NCBI RefSeq assembly: GCF_020165495.1
Contig: NZ_JAIUIE010000010.1
Span: 1-64,000 of the forward strand
Reading direction: 5' to 3'
From: Mesorhizobium sp. BR1-1-16
GTDB lineage: Bacteria > Pseudomonadota > Alphaproteobacteria > Rhizobiales > Kaistiaceae
DNA length: 64,000 nucleotides
Shown: positions 37,256-52,366 of the stretch, piece after piece
Numbering within the stretch: the first letter of the stretch is position 1
How the letters are laid out: each line of letters opens with the position of its first letter
Position numbers and translations under genes: made by a program
Notes under the pieces: model-generated
Database searches by the model: none
The model's input: the letters and a program-made list of their open reading frames with translations, nothing else
What the model was told of the DNA's origin: nothing

Positions 37256-37276
37256 GGACGCCGGCCGAGCCAATCT

Positions 37277-37390
37277 TCCCCCTCTCCCGCTTGCGGGAGA
37301 GGGCTTGGGCGAGGGCGCTCGCTAGCGGCGCCGTCGCCGGAAGCCAAATAAAACCCTGACCCTACGCTCCCGCGGGCGGGCGAGGGCTCT
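37277..37390. repeat. REP-like palindromic repeat between binding-protein and permease genes
   Basis: CCCTCTCCCGC (37280-37290) and GCGGGAGAGGG (37293-37303) form a perfect 11-base stem with a TT loop. It is followed by GGGCGAGGGC and, about 50 bases on, by a CCCTGACCC and CCCGCGGGCGGGCGAGGG half. This layout is a common dispersed intergenic element in high-GC proteobacteria. Inside an operon it can protect the upstream mRNA and lower downstream expression. Confidence 0.7.
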
Positions 37391-37443
37391 CGCCAGTGCG
37401 ACGACAAAGACCGAGCACAATCGCCATCGATCAGGAACGGGAC

Positions 37444-38349
37444 ATGACCGCCATTGCCGCAAATCGACGGTCCGAACTCAAGCGGGCGCAGGCGCGGGCC
37501 GGCTATCTCTTCATTTTGCCGTCTTTCGCGCTCTATCTCACATTCGTGCTGGCCCCGGTTATCGTCACCTTTCTGCTCGCCTTCACCTATTATGATGCGA
37601 TCGACGGCGCGAGCTTCGTCGGGCTCGACAATTTCAAGCGCTTCTTCACCGATGGCCGTTCGCTTGAAATCTTCTGGAATACGCTGCGGTTTGCCTTCTT
37701 CGCCGTGACCTTCAATGTTGGCGTCGGCCTGGCGCTGGCGCTCGCGCTCAACCGGGCCATGCCGGCCTTCCTGCTCTATTTCTTCCGCTTGGCCTTCTTC
37801 CTGCCCGTGATCATCGCCGCCGCTTTCGTGTCGATCGTCTGGGGCTACTTCTATGGCGATGATCTCGGCATCATCAATTACTACCTGATCCGCCTCGGGA
37901 TCACGCCGGTTCGCTGGTTGACCTCGTCCTCGACCGCGATGATGTCGATCATCATCATGGATGTCTGGAAGAACACCGGGTTCTTCATGATCATCTTCAT
38001 CGCCGCGCTGCAGGGCGTGCCGAAGACCATCATGGATGCGGCGATCATGGATGGCGCCTCCTATTGGCGGCGCTTCTCGCGGATCATCCTGCCGTGGATC
38101 TCGCCGGTCATCTTCTTCAACATCGTCTATGCCTCAATCGGCGCGATGCAGGTCTATGAATCCATCGTCATCCTGACCTCCGGTGGCCCCGGCGACTCGA
38201 CGCGATCGATGTCGATCTACATCGTCGAGGAAGCGTTCGGCTCCTTCGAGATCGGCTACGCGGCCTCGGTCTCCGTCATCCTCACCGTCGTCATTCTCAT
38301 TTTGACCTCGCTGCAGCTCATCGCGTCGCGGCGTTGGGTCAGTTACTAG
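37444..38349 (+). CDS. Sugar ABC transporter permease, MalF/UgpA type
   Basis: A 301-residue permease with six helices, the first LFILPSFALYLTFVLAPVIV. The ATPase coupling loop reads KTIMDAAIMDGASYWRRF before IILPWI. I place the start at ATG 37444 (CAGGAACGGGAC upstream) rather than a GTG at 37396 that lies in the repeat-flanking sequence. It pairs with the next gene, 10 bases downstream. Confidence 0.92.
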   Translation: MTAIAANRRSELKRAQARAGYLFILPSFALYLTFVLAPVIVTFLLAFTYYDAIDGASFVGLDNFKRFFTDGRSLEIFWNTLRFAFFAVTFNVGVGLALALALNRAMPAFLLYFFRLAFFLPVIIAAAFVSIVWGYFYGDDLGIINYYLIRLGITPVRWLTSSSTAMMSIIIMDVWKNTGFFMIIFIAALQGVPKTIMDAAIMDGASYWRRFSRIILPWISPVIFFNIVYASIGAMQVYESIVILTSGGPGDSTRSMSIYIVEEAFGSFEIGYAASVSVILTVVILILTSLQLIASRRWVSY

Positions 38350-38359
38350 GGGGCCGCCG

Positions 38360-39199
38360 ATGCAGACCCGCTCGCGTCAGCAATGGACCGATCGCGCCAT
38401 CATCGCCATCATGGCCGTGCTCGGCGTGTTCATGCTGCTGCCCTTCATGTGGCTGTTCTCGATGTCGTTCCGCCCGGTGGCGGACGCCTACAAGATGCCG
38501 CCGAGTTTCCTGCCGCCGACCTTTGACCTGACCAATTATCGGGCCGTGCTTGCCTCGGAAATCCCGTTCCTCCAGATCTATTGGAACTCGATCCAGATCG
38601 CGGTGCTGGTCACGGTCGGACAGCTCATTACCTGTACGCTCGCCGCCTTCGCCTTCGCGCGGCTTGAGTTTCCGGGGCGCGACAGCCTGTTCTTCATCAT
38701 GCTGGTCGGGCTGATGTTCCCGGCGCAGGTGACGATCATCCCGATCTATCTCGGCTATGCCGAGGCGGGGCTGCTCAACCGGCCGATCGGGCTGGCGCTC
38801 ATGTATCTGACCTCGAGCTTCGGCGTCTTTTTGGTCCGGCAGTTCATGCGTTCGCAGCCAAAGGCGCTGGAAGAGGCAGCGCTCATGGATGGCGCCGGCT
38901 ATTTCAAGATCTTCTTCCGTATTTCTCTGCCGCAGTTGCGGCCGGCTCTGTCGGCGCTCGGCATCATCACCTTCACGCAGACCTGGAATTACTATTTCCA
39001 GGCGCGCGTCCTGCTTGAACCACAGGAATCGATGACCCTGCCGGTCGCCATGGACATGCTCCGCGGCTTCATGGGGCAGGGCAACCTCTCGATGGTCATG
39101 GCCGCGATGAGCATGGCCGTCCTGCCGGTGATCCTCATCTTCCTTCTTGCCCAGAAGCTGGTGATCGAGGGCGTGACGATGAGCGGCATCAAGAACTGA
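38360..39199 (+). CDS. Sugar ABC transporter permease, MalG/UgpE type
   Basis: A 279-residue permease with six helices (first: IIAIMAVLGVFMLLPFMWLF). The coupling loop is PKALEEAALMDGAGYFKIFF, then ISLPQLRP. The C-terminus QKLVIEGVTMSGIKN is typical of this subunit. It forms the channel with the preceding gene and should be powered by the MalK-type ATPase at 41893. Confidence 0.93.
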   Translation: MQTRSRQQWTDRAIIAIMAVLGVFMLLPFMWLFSMSFRPVADAYKMPPSFLPPTFDLTNYRAVLASEIPFLQIYWNSIQIAVLVTVGQLITCTLAAFAFARLEFPGRDSLFFIMLVGLMFPAQVTIIPIYLGYAEAGLLNRPIGLALMYLTSSFGVFLVRQFMRSQPKALEEAALMDGAGYFKIFFRISLPQLRPALSALGIITFTQTWNYYFQARVLLEPQESMTLPVAMDMLRGFMGQGNLSMVMAAMSMAVLPVILIFLLAQKLVIEGVTMSGIKN

Positions 39200-39245
39200 C
39201 GCGGATAGCACCGCGCGATCTCTTCAAGGAACAGGAACCCAGGGA

Positions 39246-41882
39246 ATGCTGAACGATCTCGCTTCGATCGACCCCCGCTTCGTCTATCGCGATGCGCGCC
39301 GCCGCTATGCCATCTTTCCGCTTGGCGGCATCGGCGCCGGCGGGTTTTCGATCACCGGCGCCGGCCGCATGGTGGATTGGTCGATTCGCAATCGCCCCGA
39401 GCTGCATCAGTTCAACGGCTACAGTCATTTCGCCATCAAGGCCGAACAGGACGGCAAGCTGCTGAAGGCGCTGGTGCTGAACGGGCCCTATGAGGGTACG
39501 CCGACCGGCTCGCCCTCGGTCCGCAAGTTCGACGGCTTCGGCTTCGGCGCCAACCGCGATTCCATGGCCGGCGTGCCGCATTTTGCCGACGTCACCATGG
39601 TCGGCCGTTTCCCGGTCGCCGAATTCGCGTTTCATGACGAGCGCTTCCCCGGCGACGTGCGCATGCAGGCGCTGTCGCCCTTCATTCCGCACAATGACAG
39701 GGATTCATCGCTTCCCGTCGCGATGTTCGCCTTCGAAGTCGAGAACACGACGGCCGCGCCGATCGACTACACGATTGCGGGAACGCTGGGGAATTTCGGC
39801 TGCGACAGCGGTATTCATCGCTTCGTGCAGGCGGGCGGCACTTCGGCGTTGCATCTCACCTCGGCCGACGAGGATCGCGCCGCCGACCAGCGCGGCGATC
39901 TCGCCATCATGACCGACGCCGAGGATGTCGAGCATGTCGACTATCATTTCCGCGGCCAGTGGTTCGACAGCCTCAGCCTTTACTGGCGCGAATTCGCGCG
40001 CGCGGGACGGATGCCGGAGCGGCACTATGACAAGCCGCGCGAGGTGAAGAACATGTTCGCGCAGCCCGAGCACGGCACGCTCGCGGCGCGGATCACCGTG
40101 GCGCCAGGCGAGAAGCGCACCATCCGCTTCGCCATCGCCTGGAACTATCCCCTCGGCAGCATCTACTGGTATCGCCGCGACAAGCCCGACAGCCGCGCGA
40201 CCGAGGGCTCCAAGCCGACCTGGAAGAACTTCTACGCCACGCAATGGGCGGATTCACTTGAAAGCGCTGGCGACGCCTTCGCGCGCTGGGACGAGCTGGC
40301 AGGCGCGACGCTGGCCTTTCGGGACGCGATCTTCGGCGCGGCGCTGCCATCCGAGATCATCGATGCGGCGACCGGGACGATGGGCCTGCTGCGCACCGCC
40401 ACGGTCATCCGGCTTGAAGGCGGCGAACTCTGGGGCTGGGAGGGGCAGCACGAGCGCGAAGGCTCATGCGAAGGCTCCTGCACCCATGTCTGGAACTACC
40501 AGCAGGCGCTCGCCTCTCTCTTCCCGGCGCTGGAGCGCAGCCTCCGCGATACCGAGTGGCAATACAATCAGCTGCCGAATGGCGGCCTGACCTTCCGCCA
40601 GCGCCTGCCGCTCGGCTCGGGCTTCGATATCATCGGCCCCTGCGCCGACGGGCATTTCGGCGCGATCATCAAGACGTTCCGCGAATGGCGGCAGTCGGGC
40701 GACGATGCCTGGCTGGCGCAATGGTGGCCCAACATCCGCCGCGCGCTCGACTATGCCTGGTCGCCTGACAATCCCGATCTTTGGGACCCTGAAAAGACCG
40801 GCATTCTCTGGGGGCGCCAGCACCATACGCTCGACATGGAGCTGTTCGGGCCGAATTCGTGGCTGTCGTCGATCTATGTCGCGGCGCTGAAAGCGGCATC
40901 CGAAATGGCCACCGCCATGGGCGAGGCGGCGTTCGCGACCGAGCTTGGCGACATGGCGGCGAAGGGCGGCGCCTATATTGACCAGCATCTCTTCAACGGG
41001 CGCTGGTTCGCGCAGGGCCTCGATCTCTCCGACAGGGCCTTCATCCAGCGCTTCGACACCGGCCGGGCTGCCGGCGTGCTGGCCGACAGCTTCATGGACG
41101 CCTATTGGTCGGACGAATATTCCGAGATCAAATATCAGATCGGCCAAGGCTGCCTGACTGACCAGATCCTCGGCCAGTGGCATGCCGATATCGCCGGCAT
41201 CGGCGACATCCTGGCGCCCGAGAAGGTCACCGCCGCGCTGAAATCGATCTTCGCCGAGAACAATCGCGCCTCGCTCGTCGATCACTTCAACCCCTGCCGC
41301 GTCTATGCCTATGAGAACGAGGGCGGCACGCTGCTCTGCTCCTATCCTGAAGGCACGCATGAGCCGGCCGTTCCCGCTCCCTATGCCGAGGAGGTGTGGA
41401 CCGGCCTCGAATATACGGTGGCCTCGCACATGATCATGCGCGGGCTCGTCGAGGAGGGGCTGACCATCGTCCGCGCGGCGCGCGACCGTCACGACGGCTC
41501 CAATCGCAGCCCGTGGAATGAGATCGAATGCGGCAGCTATTATGCGCGCTCGCTGTCGAGCTATGCGCTGGTCAATGCCTGGAGCGGGCTGACCTTCGAC
41601 CAGCGCAGCGGCACGATCGGCTTCGCGCCGAAGGGCGAAGCGCGCGGCACGCATTTCTGGTCGGCCGGGAAGGGCTGGGGCAAACTCGCCGTCGAAGGCG
41701 ATAAGGCCACCCTCAGGGTTCTCGGCGGAGAACTCTCCGTTGGCCGCGTTGTGTTGCCTTTCCTTGCGGGTTCGGTGACCGTGAATGGCAAGGTCGCCAT
41801 TCGCGAGGGCGAAGTGGTCGTGCTGCCGACCCCGGCCAGCCTCAAGGCCGGCGAGGCGCTCGTCATTCAGGCAGAAGGCTGA
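39246..41882 (+). CDS. GH116-like glycoside hydrolase (GBA2-type / DUF608)
   Basis: An 878-residue protein related to non-lysosomal glucosylceramidases. The N-terminal beta-sandwich starts PLGGIGAGGFSI and the (alpha/alpha)6 domain follows from about residue 375. Recognisable blocks are EREGSCEGSCTHVWNYQQ, GPCADGHFGAIIKTF (Asp of the acid/base region) and GRQHHTLDMELFGPNSW. GH116 enzymes cleave beta-glucosides or beta-xylosides. No signal peptide is present, so it acts in the cytoplasm on glycosides imported by the surrounding transporter. ATG 39246 has AGGAACCCAGGGA upstream. I am sure of the superfamily, less of the substrate. Confidence 0.85.
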   Translation: MLNDLASIDPRFVYRDARRRYAIFPLGGIGAGGFSITGAGRMVDWSIRNRPELHQFNGYSHFAIKAEQDGKLLKALVLNGPYEGTPTGSPSVRKFDGFGFGANRDSMAGVPHFADVTMVGRFPVAEFAFHDERFPGDVRMQALSPFIPHNDRDSSLPVAMFAFEVENTTAAPIDYTIAGTLGNFGCDSGIHRFVQAGGTSALHLTSADEDRAADQRGDLAIMTDAEDVEHVDYHFRGQWFDSLSLYWREFARAGRMPERHYDKPREVKNMFAQPEHGTLAARITVAPGEKRTIRFAIAWNYPLGSIYWYRRDKPDSRATEGSKPTWKNFYATQWADSLESAGDAFARWDELAGATLAFRDAIFGAALPSEIIDAATGTMGLLRTATVIRLEGGELWGWEGQHEREGSCEGSCTHVWNYQQALASLFPALERSLRDTEWQYNQLPNGGLTFRQRLPLGSGFDIIGPCADGHFGAIIKTFREWRQSGDDAWLAQWWPNIRRALDYAWSPDNPDLWDPEKTGILWGRQHHTLDMELFGPNSWLSSIYVAALKAASEMATAMGEAAFATELGDMAAKGGAYIDQHLFNGRWFAQGLDLSDRAFIQRFDTGRAAGVLADSFMDAYWSDEYSEIKYQIGQGCLTDQILGQWHADIAGIGDILAPEKVTAALKSIFAENNRASLVDHFNPCRVYAYENEGGTLLCSYPEGTHEPAVPAPYAEEVWTGLEYTVASHMIMRGLVEEGLTIVRAARDRHDGSNRSPWNEIECGSYYARSLSSYALVNAWSGLTFDQRSGTIGFAPKGEARGTHFWSAGKGWGKLAVEGDKATLRVLGGELSVGRVVLPFLAGSVTVNGKVAIREGEVVVLPTPASLKAGEALVIQAEG

Positions 41883-41892
41883 GAGGGCGGAG

Positions 41893-43029
41893 ATGGCAAG
41901 GCTCGAACTCCAATCCGTCCGCAAGAGCTACCAGTCGGTCGAGGTGATCCACGGCATCGATCTAGCGGTCGAGGATGCATCCTTCACCGTCTTTGTCGGC
42001 CCCTCGGGCTGCGGAAAGTCGACGCTGCTGCGGATGATCGCCGGGCTCGAAGAGGTCACGTCGGGCGAGGTTCATCTCGCCGGCAGGCGGTGCGATCATC
42101 TGCTGCCTTCGGCGCGCGGCATGGCGATGGTGTTCCAGTCCTATGCGCTCTATCCGCATATGAGCGTCTACGAGAATCTCCGCTTCGGCCTCGTGAACCA
42201 GAAAACCCCGAAGCCGGAAATCGAGCGCCGCATCAATGAGGCGGCGGAAATCCTGCAGATCGGCCATCTGCTGCAGCGCCGCCCCTCTCAGCTTTCAGGC
42301 GGCCAGAGCCAGCGCGTTGCCATCGGCCGCGCCATCGTCAAGGAGCCGCAGGCGTTCCTGTTTGACGAGCCGCTCTCCAATCTCGATGCCGAGCTGCGCG
42401 TGAAGATGCGCAGCGAGATCGTGGCGCTTCACCGCCGGCTGAAATCGACCATGGTCTATGTGACGCACGATCAGGTCGAGGCCATGACCATGGCGGACAG
42501 GATCGTCGTGCTGCGCGACGGTATCGTCGAGCAGACCGGCGCGCCGATCGAACTCTACGCCCGGCCACGGAACCGCTTCGTCGCTGGCTTTCTCGGCGCC
42601 CCGCAAATGAATTTCCTCGCGGCCCGCGTCGATGCCGTGTCGGAGAACGGGCTCCGTCTCTCCGTCGATGAGGGCCGCGCAACGCTCCGCGCCGCAGTCG
42701 CAGGCCCGGGCGATCTCGTCGGCAAGACCGTGACAATCGGCGTTCGCCCTGAGCATCTGATCCATGCTGCTGATGGACCGCTGAAGTGTCAGCTGACGGC
42801 GCGCGAACTGCTAGGCGCCGAAACGATCCTCTTTTCTGCGCTGGGGTCCGGCGAGCGCGTCATCGCCTCGCTGCGCGGCATCCATGACATCGCCGAAGGT
42901 GCGGTCGTCGCCTATGACGCGGCGCCCGGCTATGTCCATGTCTTCGACGCGGACGGCACGGCGCTCGCGCCGCTGCGCTCCTGGCGCGAGGACTATGGAA
43001 CCGCCGCCGGCCGAGCCTCGGCGGCGTAG
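41893..43029 (+). CDS. Sugar ABC transporter ATP-binding protein, MalK/UgpC type
   Basis: A 378-residue ATPase: Walker [10 protein letters not shown], signature [15 protein letters not shown], Walker [12 protein letters not shown], switch His in [10 protein letters not shown], and a C-terminal regulatory TOBE-type domain from about residue 245. ATG 41893 follows GAGAGGGCGGAG; the frame stays open upstream through the hydrolase end but lacks family sequence. It completes the operon of binding protein, two permeases, hydrolase and ATPase. Confidence 0.93.
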   Translation: MARLELQSVRKSYQSVEVIHGIDLAVEDASFTVFVGPSGCGKSTLLRMIAGLEEVTSGEVHLAGRRCDHLLPSARGMAMVFQSYALYPHMSVYENLRFGLVNQKTPKPEIERRINEAAEILQIGHLLQRRPSQLSGGQSQRVAIGRAIVKEPQAFLFDEPLSNLDAELRVKMRSEIVALHRRLKSTMVYVTHDQVEAMTMADRIVVLRDGIVEQTGAPIELYARPRNRFVAGFLGAPQMNFLAARVDAVSENGLRLSVDEGRATLRAAVAGPGDLVGKTVTIGVRPEHLIHAADGPLKCQLTARELLGAETILFSALGSGERVIASLRGIHDIAEGAVVAYDAAPGYVHVFDADGTALAPLRSWREDYGTAAGRASAA

Positions 43030-43048: not shown

Positions 43049-43930
43049 TCACCGCGCCCAGATATCTGATTGCAGCAGGTAGTCGCGGGTCGAGCGGTCG
43101 AGCGGGTAGACCATCACGCCGTCGCGCCCGAACCACTTGTCGTGGATGTCCATGTAGCGGCCGCGGTAATCGGCGAGCCCATCTTCGAGATCGATGATGG
43201 TGTGATTGACGAAATCGCGCCAGGCGCTGTCGTTCTGCGGCAGCATGCAGGACATGGTTTCGTTGCCATACGGTGCCGAGCGCGGCAGCAGGACGACGCT
43301 GCGGTTCGGCTCGAACTTGCGGGAGAGGCCGAGCAGGACCACGCCGATATTGGCGACGCCCTGAACGTCGCCCTTGCCGAGCGCGATGAAGGCAGCATCC
43401 ATCGACGGGAAGTTCTTGATGCGGACGCCCGGCAGCGCTTCCTGGAGGATCGTTGCCGTCGTGGTTCCCTCGGCGACGCCGATCAGCATGTCCTTCGGGT
43501 TGGGGACGGTGCGCAGCGTGTCGCGGAAGGTCAGGATGCGGGTGCCGTCGCGGAAGATCGGGATCGAAAAATCGACCTGTTTTTCGCGCGCCCAGGTCGG
43601 CGTCGTGATCTCGCAGACGATATCCAGCTTGCCATCGGCAACGAGTTGCACCCGATTGGCCGGCGTCACCACGGAAAGATCGACTTTGATCGGCTTTCCG
43701 ATGGCTTTCTCGGCCGCAGCCCGGATTTCCTCGATGAGATCGACTGAGAAGCCGACCGGCGTGCCGCTGCCATTGTCGAAGGCGAAGGGTATGGCGTCGG
43801 CGCGGGTGCCCGCGCGGATGACGCCCGTCTCCGCGATGCGATCCAGCGTTCCGCCGCTCGCGGGAGTAAGGCCCACAAGGCTCATCATCAGCGCGAGTGC
43901 CAACGCGATCGTCGATTGCTTCGAGGCCAC
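43049..43930 (-). CDS. Amino-acid-type extracellular substrate-binding protein (SBP_bac_3)
   Basis: A 293-residue periplasmic binding protein. Signal peptide about 1-25; then IAETGVIRAGTRADAIPFAF, VGFSVDLIEEI and GKLDIVCEITTPTWAREKQVDFSIP, the ligand-contact pattern of polar-amino-acid binders. It starts at GTG 43930 with AGGGAGC upstream, divergent by 102 bases from the gene fusing a related binding domain to a permease. It may feed ligand to that unusual transporter/sensor. No matching ATPase gene is adjacent. Confidence 0.87.
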   Translation of the reverse strand: MASKQSTIALALALMMSLVGLTPASGGTLDRIAETGVIRAGTRADAIPFAFDNGSGTPVGFSVDLIEEIRAAAEKAIGKPIKVDLSVVTPANRVQLVADGKLDIVCEITTPTWAREKQVDFSIPIFRDGTRILTFRDTLRTVPNPKDMLIGVAEGTTTATILQEALPGVRIKNFPSMDAAFIALGKGDVQGVANIGVVLLGLSRKFEPNRSVVLLPRSAPYGNETMSCMLPQNDSAWRDFVNHTIIDLEDGLADYRGRYMDIHDKWFGRDGVMVYPLDRSTRDYLLQSDIWAR

Positions 43931-44032
43931 GCCGCAATGCTCCCTGTCGCTCTGGAGAAGGCTTTGGTGACGGGATAGCGTTTATCGTCGCTGCCGACAA
44001 TCGGACGGTGCGTTGGGAAGGGCGGAAGTTCA

Positions 44033-45622
44033 ATGGCGGATCGTGCTGCAGTGCGACGGGCAAGGCTATTGGGAGCTCTTGTCAGGATCCTGTTTGCAAC
44101 GATCGTGGTCGTCGGCTTCGCCATGGCGGCACGTGCTGACAAGCTCGACGATATCGAGGCGCGCGGCAGTCTCATCGTCGGCGTCAAGACGGACTACGAA
44201 CCGTTCGGCTTCCGCGACGCAGCGGGCGACACCGTCGGTTATGATGTCGACGTCGCTGCGGGCCTCGCCGAATCGCTTGGCGTCAAGCTCGTCCTGGTTC
44301 CGGTGACGAGCGCGAACCGGCTGCAGAAGCTCGTCGCGGGCGAGATCGACGCCGTCGTCGCGACGCTCGGCGATACGGTCGATCGTCGCCGCCTCGTGCG
44401 CATGATCGAGCCTGGCTATTATGGCGGCGGCGCCAGCGTGCTGTTGCCGGAGCAGAGCCCGATCAGGGCCTGGACCGATCTGCGAAACCGCTCGCTCTGC
44501 GCCGTGCAGGGCGCGTTGTGGAATCGCCTCGTCGCAACGCGGCTGAATGCGGGTATCGAAGCCTTTGGCAGCATTCGCGATGCCGAGCTCGCGCTCCGCG
44601 ACGGGGCTTGCGATGGCTGGCTTTATGACGAAGCTGCGCTGCAGCGCCAGATCTCCAGCGGAGATTGGCCTGGCTACCGTCTGTTGCCACCCGATTTCGT
44701 GTCGCCCTGGGCCGTGGCAGTGGCGAGCGAGGGCCGCCTCGCGATCCGGCTCGACGACACGATCGCGACATGGCTGCGCGATGGCCACCTCGCCGCGCTC
44801 GAGGCCAAGTGGAAGCTGCCGCCCTCGGCCTATCTTCGCGACGCGGGCGCGCTTTGGTCGGCCCACGATGCCGATGGTCGTTTGACCTGCCGGCGGCAGG
44901 AGGATGGCAGCTGGACGCTTGCCTGCCGTAAGCTCGATCTGATCGAGGCGCAGGAGGTCGTGGGCCTCGCCGGCTTTACTCTCATGCTGCGCGATCGCTT
45001 CGGCATCGACGTGACACCATTTTACGACCGCTATCACCGCGCCGGACTGATCGAGGGGCTGCAGGTGACGCTCGCATTGGCCATTGCGGTGCTGGTCGGC
45101 AGCATCGGCATCGGGGCCGGCGGCGCGATCGTGCTGCGCCGGCGGGTTCCGCTGCTGACGCCGCTCCTGCATCTGATGCTGACATTGATGCGGATGACGC
45201 CGCCGCTACTGCAGCTCTACCTGGTCTTTTTCGGCATCGGCGGGCTGGTCGCGATCCACGGGCTGACGCTCTCGGCCTTCTGGAGTGCGGTTGCCGTCCT
45301 CTCCTTCTATGCCGGTGCCGCCAATGCTGCGGCCCTCGCCGAGGCCGCCGCAACGATCGGCGCCGCGCCACAACACCGGTTGAAACGAACCCTGCGGCTC
45401 GCGCACCCCGCCATCATGGGCAGCTCGATCAATGTGGTGAAGGCAACGGCCATGGCGAGCGCCATCGCGGTGCCCGAACTGGTCCATGCCAGCACGGCGA
45501 TCGCCGCCGACTACGGCAACGGCCCCGTAATGATGAACATCCTGCTCGTCGTCTACGTCGTCATCGTCCTCGCCGTGGCGCATCTCTTCACGGTGTTCGA
45601 GCGCCGGGTGCTTGCGAAATGA
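44033..45622 (+). CDS. Fusion of amino-acid-binding domain and ABC permease domain
   Basis: A 529-residue membrane protein. Residues 1-35 form a signal/anchor; 37-255 are a binding domain (IVGVKTDYEPFGF, GEIDAVVATLGDTVDRRR); a spacer with a Cys pair (RLTCRRQEDGSWTLACRK) follows; the HisM/GlnP-type permease starts at LIEGLQVTLALAIAVLVG. The ATPase-coupling loop is a weakened EAA motif (EAAATIGAAPQHRLKRTLRL). Such fusions are known for some GlnP transporters, but here no GlnQ-type ATPase is encoded nearby. The stop overlaps the next permease gene by four bases (ATGA at 45619-45622). Confidence 0.85.
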   Translation: MADRAAVRRARLLGALVRILFATIVVVGFAMAARADKLDDIEARGSLIVGVKTDYEPFGFRDAAGDTVGYDVDVAAGLAESLGVKLVLVPVTSANRLQKLVAGEIDAVVATLGDTVDRRRLVRMIEPGYYGGGASVLLPEQSPIRAWTDLRNRSLCAVQGALWNRLVATRLNAGIEAFGSIRDAELALRDGACDGWLYDEAALQRQISSGDWPGYRLLPPDFVSPWAVAVASEGRLAIRLDDTIATWLRDGHLAALEAKWKLPPSAYLRDAGALWSAHDADGRLTCRRQEDGSWTLACRKLDLIEAQEVVGLAGFTLMLRDRFGIDVTPFYDRYHRAGLIEGLQVTLALAIAVLVGSIGIGAGGAIVLRRRVPLLTPLLHLMLTLMRMTPPLLQLYLVFFGIGGLVAIHGLTLSAFWSAVAVLSFYAGAANAAALAEAAATIGAAPQHRLKRTLRLAHPAIMGSSINVVKATAMASAIAVPELVHASTAIAADYGNGPVMMNILLVVYVVIVLAVAHLFTVFERRVLAK

Positions 45623-46773
45623 ACGCGCGAGAGATCCTGCCGATGCTGCTGACCTGGACGCCCTATCTCGGCGTCGGGTTCCTGATCAATATCGGCATTT
45701 CCCTGCTGACCATGGTGATCGGCACGGCGCTCGGCTTCCTGCTCGCCCGCGGGCGCCAGCGTAGTTCCGGCGTCGCGGCGTTCCTGACCGCGGCGGCGCG
45801 CGTGCCGCCGACTTTCGTGCTGATCTATTATCTCGCTTATGTCGTCCCGCCCGAGATTCCGCTCGGTGCCTTTTCGGTGCCGCTGCCGGACTGGCTCAAG
45901 GCGTCGCTGGCCCTTGCCGTCGCCGTCACCGGCTTCGTTTCCGACAATGCGCTCTCCGCGCTTCGACATCTCGAACGCGGCGAACGCGTGGAGGCGCTCT
46001 ACTTCATCCCCGCCTGGACCACCTATCTTCTGATCATCATCATGGCATCGTCGACCGCATCGGTGATCGGCGTTCCGGAGATCGTGCAGCGGGCCAATAC
46101 GGTGATCGCCGCCGTCGGCGATCCGCGCGCGATCCTCTGGATCTATCTTTATACGATGCTGTGGTTCCTCGTGCTGTGCTGGCCGTTGGCCCGGCTCATG
46201 GGCTATGCCAAGCTACGGCTCAGCCAGCGGGCCGGGACCGCAGCCGGAGCGCGGGTCGACCTCGGCGAACGGAGCGCGCTGGCCGAGGACAGCTTGCAGG
46301 CCCTGCCTGAAGGAGACGTATTCGTGAGCGGCCAATCGGTGCTGGATCTCACCTTCGACCTGCCGGTCTCGAACGATTCGATCGCGACGATCCAGTCGGG
46401 CGTCGAGGAGGCGGGTGAGGGCGTGCTCGATTCGGCGGCCGTGTTCCGCCTGTCGCTCGCTGTCGAGGAGCTGGTGACCAATGTCGTCAAATATGGCGGC
46501 GCTTCGGACGGGCGCCTGGCAGTCGCGATCTACCGCCGGCCGGACGAGGTGACCGTCGAACTCGGCTATGGCGGCGACGCCTTCGATCCATTTCGTGACG
46601 CACCCGAGCCCGATCTCGACGCCCCGCTGGAAACGCGGCCAGTCGGTGGCCTTGGCGTCCATCTCATCAGCAACATGATCGACCGGGCCTATTATCGCCG
46701 CCAGGGCGACCGCAACACGCTGCGTCTCGTCATGATGCGAAGCGGTACGACCGATGGCGGTATCGTGCCGTGA
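45619..46773 (+). CDS. Fusion of ABC permease domain and RsbW-like GHKL anti-sigma/serine-kinase domain
   Basis: A 384-residue protein joining a five-helix HisM/GlnP-type permease (1-205) to an RsbW/SpoIIAB-like ATPase domain (about 236-380). In the GHKL part the N-box is LAVEELVTNVVKYGG (E284, N288). The G1 box reads ELGYGGDAFDPF, with Tyr317 where the ATP-adenine Asp normally stands. The G2 box is PVGGLGVHLISNMID. The permease coupling loop (HLERGERVEALYFIPAW) is far from a normal EAA motif. A GTG at 46324 with AGGAG eight bases upstream could also make the GHKL domain alone. The end overlaps the PP2C gene (GTGA). Confidence 0.85.
   Translation: MNAREILPMLLTWTPYLGVGFLINIGISLLTMVIGTALGFLLARGRQRSSGVAAFLTAAARVPPTFVLIYYLAYVVPPEIPLGAFSVPLPDWLKASLALAVAVTGFVSDNALSALRHLERGERVEALYFIPAWTTYLLIIIMASSTASVIGVPEIVQRANTVIAAVGDPRAILWIYLYTMLWFLVLCWPLARLMGYAKLRLSQRAGTAAGARVDLGERSALAEDSLQALPEGDVFVSGQSVLDLTFDLPVSNDSIATIQSGVEEAGEGVLDSAAVFRLSLAVEELVTNVVKYGGASDGRLAVAIYRRPDEVTVELGYGGDAFDPFRDAPEPDLDAPLETRPVGGLGVHLISNMIDRAYYRRQGDRNTLRLVMMRSGTTDGGIVP
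46324..46773 (+). other. Possible internal translation start for a free RsbW-like domain
   Basis: AGGAG at 46311-46315 lies eight bases before an in-frame GTG at 46324, exactly at the junction between linker and GHKL domain. Translation from here would give a soluble 149-residue anti-sigma-like protein in addition to the fusion. Confidence 0.4.
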
Positions 46774-48692
46774 CGTTGACCCGCCGTCTTATCATTCTCG
46801 TGGCGAGCTGCATCGCTTTCGCCATTCTCGTCGTGTCGCTCGTCTTCGGCATGCTCGGCCGCAATGCCCTCATCGAGCAGGCCGAGGGCCAGGCCCAGGT
46901 GGTGGCGCGCATCATTGCCGAGAGCGCGCGTCTCTCCGAGGTGGCGCTCGAGGAGGCGCAGGAGATCGTCACCGACGTCCTGACGACGCTGGCGCTGACG
47001 GCGGATCACGTCGGGCAGGTTTCGATCCCCGATGTCAGCGACCGCTTCGCCGAAATCGTCGCGCGCGGCAATCTCGATTCGATCTGGCTGGTCGACAGCG
47101 ATCTGCACATCCTCGCAAGTTCGGTCGGCGATTACGGCTCGGTCATCAACGGCCAGACGCTGCCGGAGACGCTGTCGCGCGATGCGTTGCGCGGGCTGGT
47201 TTCAGGGCGCCGATACAGCGTGGATTTCGGCCCCGCCGTCGATGGCGTCCGTTATGTCGGCGTCCGCGCCGGGCCGGGCAGGGCGTTGATTGTCGGTCAG
47301 TCCGTTCGCGCGCTCGATGGCGTCCGTGCCGCCAATTCGGTGCCCGTGCTGATGCAGGCCATGCTCAATCGCAACGACATCATCTCGATCGAGGTGCTCG
47401 ACGACCAGCAGAAATCGCTGGCACAGGTCGGCGCGGAGAAGACGCCGAAGGACCTCGTCGATCTGCCCGCCGAGACGATCTCGACCGGGGCGGCGACATC
47501 CGAGCTGAAGGGTCACCATCTCTGGGTTTCGGCGCCGATCAGGGACACGGCGGGCATCGTCATCGGAGCGGTGATGATCCAGATGTCGAACCAGCGCCTT
47601 GACGCGCTGCTCTCCGATCTTCTCATCTACGGCGTCGGTTCGGCTGCCCTCGTCTTCGCCGCCGGCGCCACCATCGCGTCGGTCTCGGCGCGGCGCATCG
47701 CTCGTCCCGTGCTCGCGATGACGACGGCGGCTCGCGAAATCGAGGCGCGGAGCTTCCACCCCGACAGCCTTGATCGGATGACCGGCCGGCAGGACGAGAT
47801 CGGCACGCTCGCCCGCGTCTTCCAGGATATGGCCGTAAAGGTGCAGCGGCGCGAGGAAGATCTCGAGGCGGAGGTCAGGGCGAGAACACTGGAGCTCGAG
47901 CAGAAGAATGCGCTGCTCGAAGATTCGGCCCGCCGCGTCGAGGCGGAGCTGCAGGCCGCAAAGACCCTGCAGGCCGCGATGCTGCCCGAATCACTGCCGG
48001 TGAGCCAGGCCTATGCCGGCAAGGCGTCGATGGTGCCGGCGCGCGAGATGGGCGGCGATTTCTATGATTTCTTCCCGCTCGACGAACGGCGCCTCGGTCT
48101 CGTCATCGCCGACGTCTCGGGCAAGGGCGTGCCGGCGGCCTTCTTCATGGCGATCTCCCGCACCGTTCTCCAGGCGAGCGCCATGGATGGCGGCTCGCCC
48201 GGCGATTGTCTCGTACGGGCCAATGAGGTGCTGTGTGCCCGAAACCCGATGGAAATGTTCGTCACGGCCTTTTACGCCATCCTCGATATCGAGACCGGTG
48301 AGCTTGCCTATGCCAATGGCGGCCATAACCCGCCGCTTATCATTCGCCGTGCCGATGGCAGCGTTGCCGGGCTGCCGGGGACGGGCGGCATGGCGCTCGG
48401 CGTGATGCCGGACATGCCCTACGGCGACAAGCTCGCGCGTCTTGCCGCCGGTGACACGCTGTTCCTCTATACCGACGGCATCTCCGAGGCGATGGATAGC
48501 GCCGGGCGCGAATTCGGCGAAGCCCGCATCGAGGCGACGCTGCGCGATGCCGCCATGCGGCCCGTCGAAGCGGTGCTGTCGGCCGTCACGGGCGCGGTCT
48601 CGGCCTTCGTCGCCGGCGCCCCGCAATCGGATGACATCACCTGTCTCGTGGTGCGTTATCTCGGCCCACCCGTCGAGACGATCCTCTCTTAG
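46770..48692 (+). CDS. Membrane PP2C-type serine phosphatase (RsbU/SpoIIE-like) with HAMP
   Basis: A 640-residue sensor phosphatase. Helix 1 (LIILVASCIAFAILVVSLVF) and helix 2 (near 285-305) flank a periplasmic sensor region of Cache type. A HAMP (ARPVLAMTTAAREIEA) and a coiled coil (about 350-395) lead to a SpoIIE domain from about 400, with metal Asp residues in REMGGDFYDFF, IADVSGKGVPAAFF, FLYTDGISEAMD and SDDITCLVVR. All key positions are intact. It should dephosphorylate an RsbV-like STAS protein. The GTG start overlaps the stop of the permease-RsbW fusion. Confidence 0.9.
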   Translation: MTLTRRLIILVASCIAFAILVVSLVFGMLGRNALIEQAEGQAQVVARIIAESARLSEVALEEAQEIVTDVLTTLALTADHVGQVSIPDVSDRFAEIVARGNLDSIWLVDSDLHILASSVGDYGSVINGQTLPETLSRDALRGLVSGRRYSVDFGPAVDGVRYVGVRAGPGRALIVGQSVRALDGVRAANSVPVLMQAMLNRNDIISIEVLDDQQKSLAQVGAEKTPKDLVDLPAETISTGAATSELKGHHLWVSAPIRDTAGIVIGAVMIQMSNQRLDALLSDLLIYGVGSAALVFAAGATIASVSARRIARPVLAMTTAAREIEARSFHPDSLDRMTGRQDEIGTLARVFQDMAVKVQRREEDLEAEVRARTLELEQKNALLEDSARRVEAELQAAKTLQAAMLPESLPVSQAYAGKASMVPAREMGGDFYDFFPLDERRLGLVIADVSGKGVPAAFFMAISRTVLQASAMDGGSPGDCLVRANEVLCARNPMEMFVTAFYAILDIETGELAYANGGHNPPLIIRRADGSVAGLPGTGGMALGVMPDMPYGDKLARLAAGDTLFLYTDGISEAMDSAGREFGEARIEATLRDAAMRPVEAVLSAVTGAVSAFVAGAPQSDDITCLVVRYLGPPVETILS

Positions 48693-48712
48693 TCGAGCGA
48701 AGGAGATCCGAC

Positions 48713-49225
48713 ATGGCCGATCAACCTGGCGATGGCCGCCTCACCGGAGGGTGCCAGTGCGGCGCGGTGCGTTTCGCCTGCGACACGCCGCCGAGCAATG
48801 TGCATGTCTGCCATTGCCGCATGTGCCAGAAGGCGGTCGGCGGTCCATTCGCGGTGATCTGCCCGGTACAGAAGTCGGACTTTCGCGTGACGCGCGGCGC
48901 GTTCTCCTGGTTTCGAAGCTCGGCGCTCGCTCGTCGCGGCTTCTGCAGCGCATGCGGCACGCCGATGATCTTCGACTATCCGGACTTCCCGGATATCGGC
49001 GTGATGGCCGGGGCCTTCGACCAACCTTCGCGCGTCCCGCCGGTCGTCCAGTATGGCAACGAAAGCCGCGTCGAATGGTTCTCCGAGCTCGTATCTCTGC
49101 CGGGCGATCGGCCGACCTATTCGCATGATCCCATGGGCTATCTCCCGCGGATCAAGGCGAGCAACCGTCAGCACCCCGATCATGACACGACGGATTGGCC
49201 GCCCAGCGGCCGCGACGAATCCTAA
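48713..49225 (+). CDS. GFA (glutathione-dependent formaldehyde-activating-like) family protein
   Basis: A 170-residue zinc-fold protein with the CENP-V/GFA Cys pattern: GGCQCGAVRF, CHCRMCQKAVGG and FCSACGTPMIF. The family name comes from Paracoccus Gfa; most members have no proven enzymatic role. ATG 48713 has AAGGAG seven bases upstream. It follows the phosphatase gene by 20 bases, so may be co-transcribed, although no functional link is evident. Confidence 0.88.
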   Translation: MADQPGDGRLTGGCQCGAVRFACDTPPSNVHVCHCRMCQKAVGGPFAVICPVQKSDFRVTRGAFSWFRSSALARRGFCSACGTPMIFDYPDFPDIGVMAGAFDQPSRVPPVVQYGNESRVEWFSELVSLPGDRPTYSHDPMGYLPRIKASNRQHPDHDTTDWPPSGRDES

Positions 49226-49228
49226 GTT

Positions 49229-49567
49229 TCAGCCCTCGGTCCGCTTCACGGCTTCCGCGCGCGAGGGCGCGACGTCGAGGATATTGAGGAAGCCGCTGAT
49301 TTCGAACACGTCCTTGATGTTCGACTGGAAGCCGGTGAGCACGAGCTTGCGGCCGGCCTGCTTCATGCGCTTGGCGACGACCAGCACGATCCTGAGACCG
49401 GCGCTGGAAATATAGTCGAGCCGCTGGAAATCGATCACGACGCCGCCGCTGCCTTCCGAGAGATAGGAAAGAAGCTCGGCTTCGACCGTTGCCGCATTGG
49501 CGCTGTCGAGGCGGCCGAGGAGGTCGATGACCGAGGCAGTGCCAACGCTCTCGAACGTAACGTTCAT
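49229..49567 (-). CDS. STAS domain anti-sigma factor antagonist (RsbV/SpoIIAA-like)
   Basis: A 112-residue single-domain protein. The phosphorylatable Ser lies in DYISSAGLRIVLVVAKRM, with the strand VVIDFQRL before it, matching RsbV/SpoIIAA. Unphosphorylated, such proteins bind the RsbW-type partner. ATG 49567 has TGGAG upstream. It is convergent with the GFA gene and divergent from the nucleobase-symporter fusion. Its expected partners are the GHKL domain in 45619-46773 and the phosphatase in 46770-48692. Confidence 0.9.
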   Translation of the reverse strand: MNVTFESVGTASVIDLLGRLDSANAATVEAELLSYLSEGSGGVVIDFQRLDYISSAGLRIVLVVAKRMKQAGRKLVLTGFQSNIKDVFEISGFLNILDVAPSRAEAVKRTEG

Positions 49568-49756
49568 CTCAACTCCAGTTTCTTGGTCGGGTTGCGCGCA
49601 ATCCGTGATCAGGATGGCGCCCGGGGCAAAAATGACTTTGCAGGCCACCAGCGACCGGGCAATGTAGCGCGGGGCCGAGGCCGAGGCGAGGAACAGCATG
49701 CATCGATCGGATTGTCGCGGCAATGACCGCTGCGCAAGAGGCGGACAAGCCGAACG

Positions 49757-51514
49757 ATGATTGCGTTGAAAATGCCACCGTCGCGGCCGCGACGGCGCCC
49801 GCATGAGCTTTCTTTCTCCGCCGACGAGAAGCCGCCGATTGCGACGGCGATCACGCTCGGGTTCCAGCATGCCGTGATGGCGCTCGGCTTGCTCGCCTAC
49901 ACGCTGGCGCTCGCCCGCTACGCCAATCTCTCTGTCGACCAGACGCGCAATCTTCTTGCCGTCACCATTATCGCCATGGCGATCGGCACGGCACTGCAGG
50001 CCTGGGGCGGTCGCCTCGGCTCAGGGTCGCTGATGATCCACATGCCCTCTGTGTTCATGGTGCCGCTGGCAGGACCGATCCTCGCCGTGACCGGCCCCGG
50101 CGGCATGGTGACGATGACCGTGGTCTCGGCAGTGGCAACACTGGCGATCGCGCCGCTCTTGCCGCGCCTTCGCGGCCTGTTCCCCCCGATCGTCGCTGGT
50201 CTCGTCGTGCTGATCGGCGGCATGTCGCTCGTGGGCGAGGCGGTCGAACACTCCTGGAGTCTCGGCCACGACTTCGTCATCGATATTCCGAGCCTCATCA
50301 TGTCGTCGATCACGCTGGCGCTGATCGTCGGGCTCTCGGTATGGGGTAACCGGCGACTGAAGCTGCTGGCGCTTCTCATCGGCGTCGTCGCGGGCGTTGC
50401 CGCGGCCTTCTTCATGGGACGCCTTGAAGGCGGCGCGGTCTTGATGTCCGCAGCGCCGGTCGCGATGCCCGAGCTCGTGACACCGGTCGTCGACATTCCG
50501 GTCGGCCTGCTGCTTGGCCTCGCTTTCATCGCTATCCTGACCCAGATCGACACCGTCGGCAGCCTGATCCTGCTCGACAGGATGGACGATGCCGACTGGC
50601 GCCGTCCGGACATGAAACAGGCGAGCCGCGGCGTGCTCGGCGCCGGTATCGCCGATCTGATCGGCGGCGTGCTCGGGTCGATGCCGACCGCCACCTCCTC
50701 GGCCAATATCGGCCTTTGCCATGCGAGTGCCGTCACCAGCCGCACAGTCGGGCTCGCCACGGCGGCGATCCTGATGCTGGTCGCGTTCCTGCCGCAGGCG
50801 ACCCTGGCGCTGACGCTGATCCCGACGCCGGTGATCGGCGCGATCGAGCTCTATGCGGCGGCCTTCCTGATGGCGGCGGGCATCGACCTCATTGCTTCGC
50901 GCGAACTCGATACGCGCGGCATCTTCATCGTCGGCATCTCGCTGCTTGGCGGTGTCACGGTGCTCCTGATGCCGGGCCTTGCCGAGCGGGCGCATCCGGC
51001 GCTGCGCCATCTCGTCGGTTCAGGCTTCATCGTCACTGGCGTCATCGCGATCGTGCTCAACCTCGTCTTCCGGCTCGGCATCCGACGCCAACTGGCGATC
51101 AAGCTCGCCGCCGACGGCCCGCCGGTGTCGATCCAGATTACCGATTTCATCGAGGAGGCCGGTGGTTCCTGGGCGGCACGGCGCGATGTCGTCCGCCGCG
51201 CCGCGCTCGCCGCTGTCGAAGCTGCTGAGGCGATCGACCAGGCCGGGGGCGACCGCCACGTTATCGGCATCGGCGGCAGCTTCGACGAGCTCAACCTCGA
51301 TATCGAACTGGTCCATTCCGGCGCTCCGATGCCCGTTGGCGACGTCGCGGTGGCGGATCTGGAAAGCCTCCTCGATGGCGATGACGACTCGGCCATTGAT
51401 GCGGCGATGTCGAGCATTTCGGGCACGCTGCTGCGCCGCCTCGCCGACCGTCTGTCGAGCCGGGCCGGGCCAGAGCCGGGGACCTCGATCCTCAGGCTGC
51501 ATTTCGAACATTGA
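49757..51514 (+). CDS. Nucleobase:cation symporter-2 (uracil/xanthine permease) fused to an RsbW-like degenerate GHKL domain
   Basis: A 585-residue inner-membrane protein. Residues about 25-445 are an NCS2/SLC23-type permease (12-14 helices) with IAILTQIDTVGSL, GSMPTATSSANIG and IPTPVIGAIELYAA. Residues 455-585 are an added soluble domain whose order resembles an RsbW fold: helix RRDVVRRAALAAVEAAEAI in place of the N-box, strand plus LVHSGAPMP in place of the G1 box, helix TLLRRLADRLSS and last strand GTSILRLHFEH. The ATP-binding Asn and Asp are missing, so it is probably a binding-only domain. The domain call is mine by pattern and needs a profile search. Confidence 0.75.
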   Translation: MIALKMPPSRPRRRPHELSFSADEKPPIATAITLGFQHAVMALGLLAYTLALARYANLSVDQTRNLLAVTIIAMAIGTALQAWGGRLGSGSLMIHMPSVFMVPLAGPILAVTGPGGMVTMTVVSAVATLAIAPLLPRLRGLFPPIVAGLVVLIGGMSLVGEAVEHSWSLGHDFVIDIPSLIMSSITLALIVGLSVWGNRRLKLLALLIGVVAGVAAAFFMGRLEGGAVLMSAAPVAMPELVTPVVDIPVGLLLGLAFIAILTQIDTVGSLILLDRMDDADWRRPDMKQASRGVLGAGIADLIGGVLGSMPTATSSANIGLCHASAVTSRTVGLATAAILMLVAFLPQATLALTLIPTPVIGAIELYAAAFLMAAGIDLIASRELDTRGIFIVGISLLGGVTVLLMPGLAERAHPALRHLVGSGFIVTGVIAIVLNLVFRLGIRRQLAIKLAADGPPVSIQITDFIEEAGGSWAARRDVVRRAALAAVEAAEAIDQAGGDRHVIGIGGSFDELNLDIELVHSGAPMPVGDVAVADLESLLDGDDDSAIDAAMSSISGTLLRRLADRLSSRAGPEPGTSILRLHFEH

Positions 51515-51556
51515 CGTGACGTTTTGAGCCCGAAGCCCGGCGGACACCGGAAAGCC

Positions 51557-52366
51557 ATGCCCGTGACTGTTTGCCCACCGGATGGCGCGCTCCCGCTCCC
51601 CGACATGGCGGAGAGCTACGACGCCTATTTCTCGTCGGGCCTTTACCAGAGGCGCTATCCGCGCCCGAACCGCCGCACGATGCGCTTCCTGCGCGCGGCG
51701 CTGCCGATCGGCGGGCGTCTGCTCGACTATGGCGCCGGCGAAGGGCGCTATTGTCTCGCGCTGGCGCGCGAGCGCGAGGCCGAGGTTGTCGCTGTCGATA
51801 TCAGCCCGGTGGCGCGCAACCATTTGACCGCGACCGTGGCCGAAGCGGGCCTCGCTGGTCGGATCGCGGTCGTCGATGCCAGCGGCACCGAATATCGGCG
51901 TCTCGTCAACGGGTCGGGCCGGTTCGATGCGGTTCTGCTGGGCTTCGGCGTTCTCGGCCATGTCGCGGGTCGCGCAAACCGGCTGGCCCTTCTGAAGGAC
52001 CTGCGCGGCAATCTCGCGCCAGGTGGCCGGCTCGTCCTCGGACTGCCGAATGTGCGGCGAAGGTTTCGTGCGGCACAGGCGGAAGCAGCCGTCTTTCCAG
52101 GCCTCGAACCCGGCGATATCCGCTATAATCGCGATGCGGGCAATGACACCATCGCGCTATTCTATCATCTCTATCGCCGCGAGGAGATCGTCGCCGAGCT
52201 TGCCGTGGCCGGCTTCGCGATCGAGCATCTGACCAGCGAGAGCGTGCTGCCCGAATATGCCGTGACGCATCGCGCGATCATCGGCTGGATCGACGACCGT
52301 CTCTCGGGCATTCTTCCGGTGGATTGGGGTTATGGATATCTCGTCGTGGCCGTTCCGCGGCGCTGA
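51557..52366 (+). CDS. Class I SAM-dependent methyltransferase
   Basis: A 269-residue methyltransferase. SAM-binding motif I is RLLDYGAGEGRYCLALA; motif II area VVAVDISPVARNHL; later RLVLGLPNVRRRF. ATG 51557 is chosen; a TTG at 51524 would add 11 residues. It follows the symporter fusion by 42 bases and overlaps no neighbour. The methyl acceptor cannot be told from the sequence. Confidence 0.85.
   Translation: MPVTVCPPDGALPLPDMAESYDAYFSSGLYQRRYPRPNRRTMRFLRAALPIGGRLLDYGAGEGRYCLALAREREAEVVAVDISPVARNHLTATVAEAGLAGRIAVVDASGTEYRRLVNGSGRFDAVLLGFGVLGHVAGRANRLALLKDLRGNLAPGGRLVLGLPNVRRRFRAAQAEAAVFPGLEPGDIRYNRDAGNDTIALFYHLYRREEIVAELAVAGFAIEHLTSESVLPEYAVTHRAIIGWIDDRLSGILPVDWGYGYLVVAVPRR

Follow-up and report, generated by a model that had tools for sequence, protein, structure and literature searches.

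The window analysed here, a stretch of 64,000 nucleotides from a genome of the genus Kaistia, contains a gene cluster in which a partner-switching set is physically joined to transporter bodies (Table 1). ORF calling combined with Pfam and NCBIfam scans placed all domains named in an earlier sequence-only reading of this DNA where that reading had put them, except for the tail of the NCS2 symporter, for which more sensitive methods were needed. The perm1 part of the first fusion matches the polar-amino-acid permease model TIGR01726 (NCBIfam) at 41.3 bits, slightly below the cutoff of 42.2, and the SpoIIE match within the RsbU gene spans 48081-48659. Overlaps of 4 bp each (ATGA, GTGA) connect the genes for the binding protein/permease fusion, the permease::GHKL fusion and RsbU, which thus form a tightly coupled operon. 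The STAS gene is located between the RsbU gene and that of the NCS2 symporter, which is read divergently; the STAS protein most likely starts at 49567, a start kept in relatives, and not at the start of the long ORF. Since the GFA-family gene is present in just two of the 20 loci of the family (the window and K. soli), it is a probable passenger of the cluster. An anti-phage role was also considered and set aside, as PADLOC returned 0 matches for five cluster proteins.

Table 1. Features of the cluster, with positions in the window.
Feature	Position	Strand	Evidence or remark
Stand-alone periplasmic binding protein, SBP_bac_3	43049..43930	-	Pfam 4.9e-22; divergent from operon
Binding protein::ABC permease 1 (perm1)	44033..45622	+	SBP_bac_3 2.4e-24; coupling loop shortened
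ABC permease 2 (perm2)::RsbW-type GHKL	45619..46773	+	Weak permease matches and HATPase_c_2 3.3e-15
Site of lost ATPase-docking (EAA) loop, perm2	45955..46008	+	18 residues remain of 38
GHKL domain of perm2 fusion	46369..46731	+	N-box Glu/Asn and GGLG kept; G1 Asp -> Tyr
RsbU-type membrane phosphatase: TM/sensor part, HAMP, PP2C	46770..48692	+	Pfam SpoIIE 4.4e-50
GFA-family protein	48713..49225	+	Pfam; between RsbU and STAS genes
RsbV-type STAS protein, conserved YISSAGLR	49229..49567	-	TIGR00377 above cutoff (NCBIfam)
NCS2 nucleobase symporter, divergent from STAS	49757..51514	+	Xan_ur_permease 2.7e-45 (Pfam)
Degenerate RsbW-fold tail of NCS2 symporter	51074..51511	+	
SAM methyltransferase (MT)	51524..52366	+	Pfam Methyltransf_23 1.9e-14; conserved cluster partner

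The permease::GHKL fusion is genuine. GHKL similarity is present in the C-terminal region of perm2 (the HATPase_c_2 match of 3.3e-15), and assembly error as the source of the fusion is ruled out by several independent assemblies together with the codon pattern. The same in-frame fusion occurs in Kaistia soli, K. hirudinis, a MAG labelled Bosea, the one-contig genome G225 and two Zavarzinia assemblies. Relative to K. soli, differences at the three codon positions number 14/5/70 in the permease part (215 codons) and 5/5/53 in the GHKL part (154 codons), a pattern which, judged from these counts, is that of coding DNA under purifying selection.

The core cluster was found at 20 loci, mostly in Alphaproteobacteria (the window, L034 and L045-L062, L059 being a 4.5-kb contig only), with conserved gene order. 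Among 297 genomes of the order, full-length matches occur in the same genus only (the window genome, G099, G130 and G225), two other genomes of that genus, G244 and G278, giving no match in this search; in G010, from another family, the permease (70%) and the GHKL protein (44%) are encoded by separate neighbouring genes. When named genomes were scanned with the permease alignment, 18 loci were obtained, from Kaistia soli, K. hirudinis, the Bosea-labelled MAG, Zavarzinia (two), Oryzicola, Corticibacterium, Aquamicrobium, Defluviicoccus and other alphaproteobacterial MAGs, as well as from two MAGs, possibly misbinned, that carry the labels Anaerolineae and Gammaproteobacteria. The class-wide sample of 385 genomes contained five family members (226 bits or more), the next match being G611 at 157 bits. 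RsbU is encoded downstream of perm2 at all 20 family loci, and GHKL (17/20), STAS (16/20) and the methyltransferase (18/20, and 2/3 loci of the sister lineage described below) accompany it; at L048 the STAS/NCS2/MT part is on another contig, from a genome taken to be the same. The stand-alone binding protein was matched in 19 of the 20, the remaining locus being the 4.5-kb contig. Nearly every family locus retains two binding-protein domains along with two permeases.

EAA docking loops are the known contact of a permease with its ABC ATPase. The cluster has the binding protein and the two HisQ/M-fold permeases of a type I importer; full-length EAA coupling loops and a HisP-type ATPase gene beside the permeases are absent. 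The perm2 loop measures 18 aa in 21/21 family loci (20 distinct genomes) versus 38 aa in ordinary relatives (9 of 13 measured by pattern and the other 4 by alignment), and the anchored loop segment of perm1 measures 56-65 aa in 20/20 family loci, 58 aa in the window, versus 74 aa in 12/12 ordinary relatives. The perm1 counts come from the anchored alignment because in many family loci the loop pattern either failed to find the perm1 loop or gave it a wrong length; the ordinary locus L020, with no usable perm1 match, was left out of the segment comparison and is of ordinary length by pattern, and a contig-end fragment (G582, L173/L174) was excluded from the loop-length counts. A HisP-type ATPase gene adjoins the permeases in none of the 20 family loci versus all 13 ordinary loci; it also adjoins them in 9 of 10 further loci, the exception being L185. 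One ABC ATPase encoded in the window, at 41785-43029, was considered as the missing engine and rejected: it is just 31% identical to the HisP query and stands at the end of what appears from the ORFs to be a sugar ABC/glycosidase operon, and its close relatives adjoin the cluster in L045, L046 and G225 only.

Because most of both docking loops has been lost and no HisP-type ATPase gene is found in the neighbourhood, transport by the permease pair seems unlikely, and the two permeases look like parts of a receptor. The earlier reading had proposed that ligand binding or transport could directly set the phosphorylation state of the STAS protein; the loops and the missing ATPase speak against the second of these triggers, and receptor-like permeases are in keeping with the first.

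A divergent group limits how far short loops can be equated with a switch. Two loci of genus g188, L185 (G574) and L213 (G651), encode a binding protein/permease pair whose perm2 loop matches that of the family in its short length, and about 19.5 kb around each holds no match to HisP, nor to RsbU, STAS or GHKL; a relative of L185, L214 (G362), likewise has no match to any of the four. Short loops are therefore not always paired with a neighbouring switch. When the g188 rows are added to the tree, they are placed within the short-loop clade, at the end of a very long branch (4.5) and without support for the exact position; this tree carries one false row, L214, read in the wrong frame (a different protein). 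The group may be a derived form from which the switch was moved or lost, or may put a permease pair without loops to another use. Short loops and partner switching are thereby less firmly linked in general, although not in the 20 family loci.

The permeases of the cluster might still transport with the help of a HisP-type ATPase encoded elsewhere, GHKL and RsbU merely regulating uptake. Amino-acid ABC ATPases are sometimes common to several systems, and the binding proteins and permease folds have been kept; moreover, genus g256 combines an ATPase, full loops and partner-switch genes, and the short-loop permeases of g188, with no switch gene nearby, must serve something else. Set against this are the shortening of both docking loops in all family loci measured and the lack of any family locus with an adjoining HisP-type ATPase, and we regard continued transport as improbable.

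Relatives of the permeases suggest how a receptor could have arisen. In a permease tree from which L185 was left out (it was included in the later tree), the 20 loop-less rows form one clade (100/100) whose sister is g256, represented by three genomes; the branch leading to the loop-less family is long (1.77) and the program warned of long branches that meet. The docking loops of g256 are full length, and in two of its three loci the ATPase occurs together with RsbU, methyltransferase, STAS and GHKL: G611 has these genes in one run on one strand and G530 has them as two facing operons, while the stretch fetched from G430 contains the transporter genes and a GHKL gene only, with no close HisP match. 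Within the loop-less family, GHKL is fused in frame to perm2 in Kaistia and Zavarzinia and is the next gene after perm2 in L034, L049, L050 and L051. In three Defluviicoccus contigs it is RsbU, the phosphatase, that is fused in frame to perm2, in a frame of 853 codons, and GHKL is encoded on the other strand; these RsbU fusions group as a clade of their own (100/99). The kinase is thus not the sole arm joined to the permease. These relationships fit a putative path from an intact importer accompanied by a switch, through loss of the ATPase and loops, to fusion.

The partner-switching set itself, a PP2C (SpoIIE) phosphatase, a STAS antagonist and a GHKL partner, is encoded together. Ser54/Ser55 of the STAS protein (YISSAGLR) are invariant in six aligned proteins. 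The fused GHKL domain is the sole RsbW-type match in the genome, the other 6 of 7 HATPase_c_2 matches reading as histidine kinases; RsbU is the only SpoIIE match (E <= 0.001), and besides the STAS protein of the cluster there are two STAS matches, which look like transporter proteins of the SulP and Mla types. The predicted structure of the fused protein is of modest confidence (pTM 0.47). The G1 Asp has been lost from the fused GHKL of Kaistia (4/4 loci, and also G225) and is kept in all 12 distinct matched family loci outside the genus (both Zavarzinia and 10 others); the Kaistia domain retains the N-box Glu, the Asn and GGLG. Kinase activity of the Kaistia domain is uncertain because of the lost Asp, which may mean that ATP binding is abolished; the domain would either work with a changed site or be a pseudokinase.

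If it is a pseudokinase, the Kaistia receptor might merely capture STAS, with a switch that operates without phosphorylation by that domain. Both the distribution of the G1 Asp and the degenerate NCS2 tail, a precedent for losing all nucleotide motifs, are consistent with this idea. Retention of the remaining GHKL motifs argues the other way, as does the fact that the genome has no other RsbW-type kinase and yet its phosphatase matches the whole SpoIIE model, and we consider the capture-only alternative somewhat unlikely.

A second RsbW-like part had been suggested on the NCS2 symporter. Pfam and NCBIfam report no GHKL domain in its tail; profile-profile comparison (93%, E 3.5e-7) and the predicted structure both identify an RsbW/SpoIIAB fold, so that the suggestion was correct as to fold. 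Alignments show the N-box Asn, the G1 Asp and GGLG to be missing; for this reason the tail is unlikely to be a second active kinase and could instead be a target, and hence a possible output, of the STAS protein. Outside the family clusters, a tailed NCS2 gene stands beside a STAS gene in 4 of 24 loci, one of which is a contiguous RsbU-GHKL-STAS-NCS2 run; for one of the four, in G464, the ABC receptor is on another contig. Compared with 0 of 22 untailed loci this is not significant alone (Fisher p = 0.11), and the control loci are about 4 kb versus 9.5-20 kb for the tailed loci, the four STAS matches lying 53-259 bp from the NCS2 match. Two of 24 control loci had been dropped, L208 (the window itself) and L209 (a tail, no STAS), and two of the 24 tailed loci, L125 and L129, were found by profile and have no match to the tail queries.

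These data bear on whether the cluster is an ordinary partner switch whose target, a sigma factor or other cytosolic protein, lies elsewhere, the permease being an anchor and the NCS2 gene a coincidental neighbour. RsbW families usually act on sigma factors, and NCS2 is absent from several clusters. A partner switch for which no sigma partner was found also has an alphaproteobacterial parallel in Rhodobacter RbaVW, as described in the available text (PMC3999984). No sigma-factor gene occurs among the identified neighbours of the cluster. Coincidence sits poorly with a tailed NCS2 gene next to STAS in four loci lacking an adjoining ABC receptor (with the qualification for G464 given above) and with the RsbW fold of the tail; an anchor role, moreover, leaves unexplained the kept binding-protein domains, the presence of two permeases and the purifying selection on perm2. 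We judge this explanation unlikely.

Taken together, the architecture suggests that a former amino-acid-type ABC importer has probably become a receptor controlling the phosphorylation of STAS, and that the NCS2 tail is a candidate output. A binding protein loaded with its presumed ligand would dock on the permease pair, and the resulting conformational change would be passed to the partner-switching module rather than to an ABC ATPase. The arms of that module would be the RsbW-type GHKL domain (on perm2 in Kaistia and Zavarzinia) and the HAMP-PP2C RsbU (on perm2 in Defluviicoccus), whose balance would set phosphorylation on Ser54/55 of STAS. Unphosphorylated STAS would then bind its target, the best candidate for which in Kaistia is the RsbW-fold tail of the divergent NCS2 symporter. 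A transceptor role of this kind, including the direction of signalling and any effect on transport, is read from architecture.

A more specific version, which we hold only tentatively, is that a receptor class arose from complete amino-acid ABC importers and that its output is NCS2, set by dephosphorylated STAS on the pseudokinase tail. The switch would first have joined the operon, the loops and ATPase would then have been lost, and the serine kinase or the phosphatase would have been fused in their place. STAS bound to the NCS2 tail would set symporter activity, as a non-covalent counterpart of the SLC26-STAS arrangement.

Each element has relatives in known systems. RsbU/RsbV/RsbW, SpoIIE/SpoIIAA/SpoIIAB and SiaA/SiaC/SiaB comprise the same three families and the same STAS Ser motif, but here the kinase or phosphatase is fused to a permease and a second, degenerate RsbW fold is carried by a symporter. 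NCS2 and SLC26 proteins have a common membrane fold. STAS domains likewise act on transporters in SulP/SLC26 and MlaFEDB, in the latter as MlaB, the STAS protein of an ABC transporter in the available text (PMC7367683); here STAS is a separate protein, presumably phosphorylated, for which the RsbW-fold tail is proposed as the dock. The available part of an account of STAS-only proteins (PMC8256260) describes no transporter output of the present kind.

Coupling of transporters to kinases is also known. As far as the accessible portions of the sources go, CbrA is an SLC5 transporter-histidine kinase reported to bind and transport histidine (PMC13022988), and it and other SLC5/STAC histidine kinases, in which transporter and kinase are likewise covalently joined, are termed transceptors (PMC13022988, PMC7096432). 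The CbrA type pairs a single SLC5 symporter with a histidine kinase, whereas the present proteins pair an SBP-dependent ABC permease pair lacking an ATPase with Ser/STAS partner switching. The 5TMR receptors of S-component fold, some with a SpoIIE phosphatase domain, have this fold in common with a part of ABC-type (ECF) transporters, according to the text available (PMC11109136); the common part there is the substrate-binding S-component, whereas here it is the ATP-coupled type I TM pair, which has lost its coupling loops and is accompanied by GHKL and STAS partners. ABC transporters likewise inform a kinase in PstSCAB-PhoR (PMC5775613) and BceAB-BceS (PMC11109136), which in these partly available accounts are complete transporters with ATPase and use histidine kinases. 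Our search of the open-access literature found no ABC-permease/partner-switch receptor, in agreement with the supposition that no such arrangement had been described; subscription papers were mostly outside its scope, and absence is not proven. The component families are all known, and the novelty lies in the construction of a receptor from ABC permeases and in how it is wired.

It is usual to class transporters and receptors separately, and the relatives described here, with a sister lineage in a fuller state and two different fusions, seem to record steps from an ABC importer to a receptor. If the proposal is correct, it supplies a partner-switching system with a defined chemical input, something that is often an open question for systems of this type, and it provides an example of a STAS switch acting on a symporter by way of a pseudokinase tail.

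The NCS2 output is not universal in the family. No tail match was obtained in genome G010 or in the stretches around L052, L053 and L055-L062, and for the UraA-like transporters of L056/L061, hhalign (1.3%) did not support a pseudo-GHKL tail. The methyltransferase occurs beside the cluster more often than NCS2 does, and the true output could be this enzyme.

At L061, one of the family loci, the ammonium transporter, STAS gene and type III glutamine synthetase adjoining the receptor cluster (permease pair and binding proteins with an RsbU/STAS/GHKL switch) suggest nitrogen control. Homologues of this ammonium transporter/STAS/glutamine synthetase stretch occur at L057 and L062, and the hosts of this neighbourhood are Rhodospirillales-type MAGs. 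The methyltransferase is conserved alongside the receptor across almost every lineage, among them genus g256, the sister group. The apparent sugar operon includes, from ORF reading, a putative glycosidase of 878 aa and a MalK/UgpC-like ATPase.

Two MAG labels disagree with their clusters: L053 is labelled Anaerolineae and L059 Gammaproteobacteria, yet their clusters are close to those of alphaproteobacterial L052 and L057, respectively, which may reflect misbinning or transfer.

Neither a HisP-type ATPase (the ordinary amino-acid type) nor switch genes were found near the divergent permease pairs (about 19.5 kb). No ABC receptor match adjoins the L115 run, in which a partner switch lies next to a symporter.

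Coordinates of features in the window and in loci from other genomes
Feature	Locus	Position	Remark
Class I SAM methyltransferase	window	51524-52366	
Apparent sugar ABC operon	window	35987-43029	ORF reading; immediately before cluster
Second, divergent short-loop (ATPase-docking loop) ABC permease pair	L185	7534-9896	g188 group
Second, divergent short-loop ABC permease pair	L213	7945-10043	g188 group
Ammonium transporter, STAS gene, type III glutamine synthetase	L061	2480-6440	adjoining receptor cluster
RsbU-GHKL-STAS-NCS2 (with RsbW-like tail)	L115	8506-11902	consecutive, single strand; alphaproteobacterium
Two tailed NCS2 symporter genes	L114	6326-9841	tail-to-tail orientation
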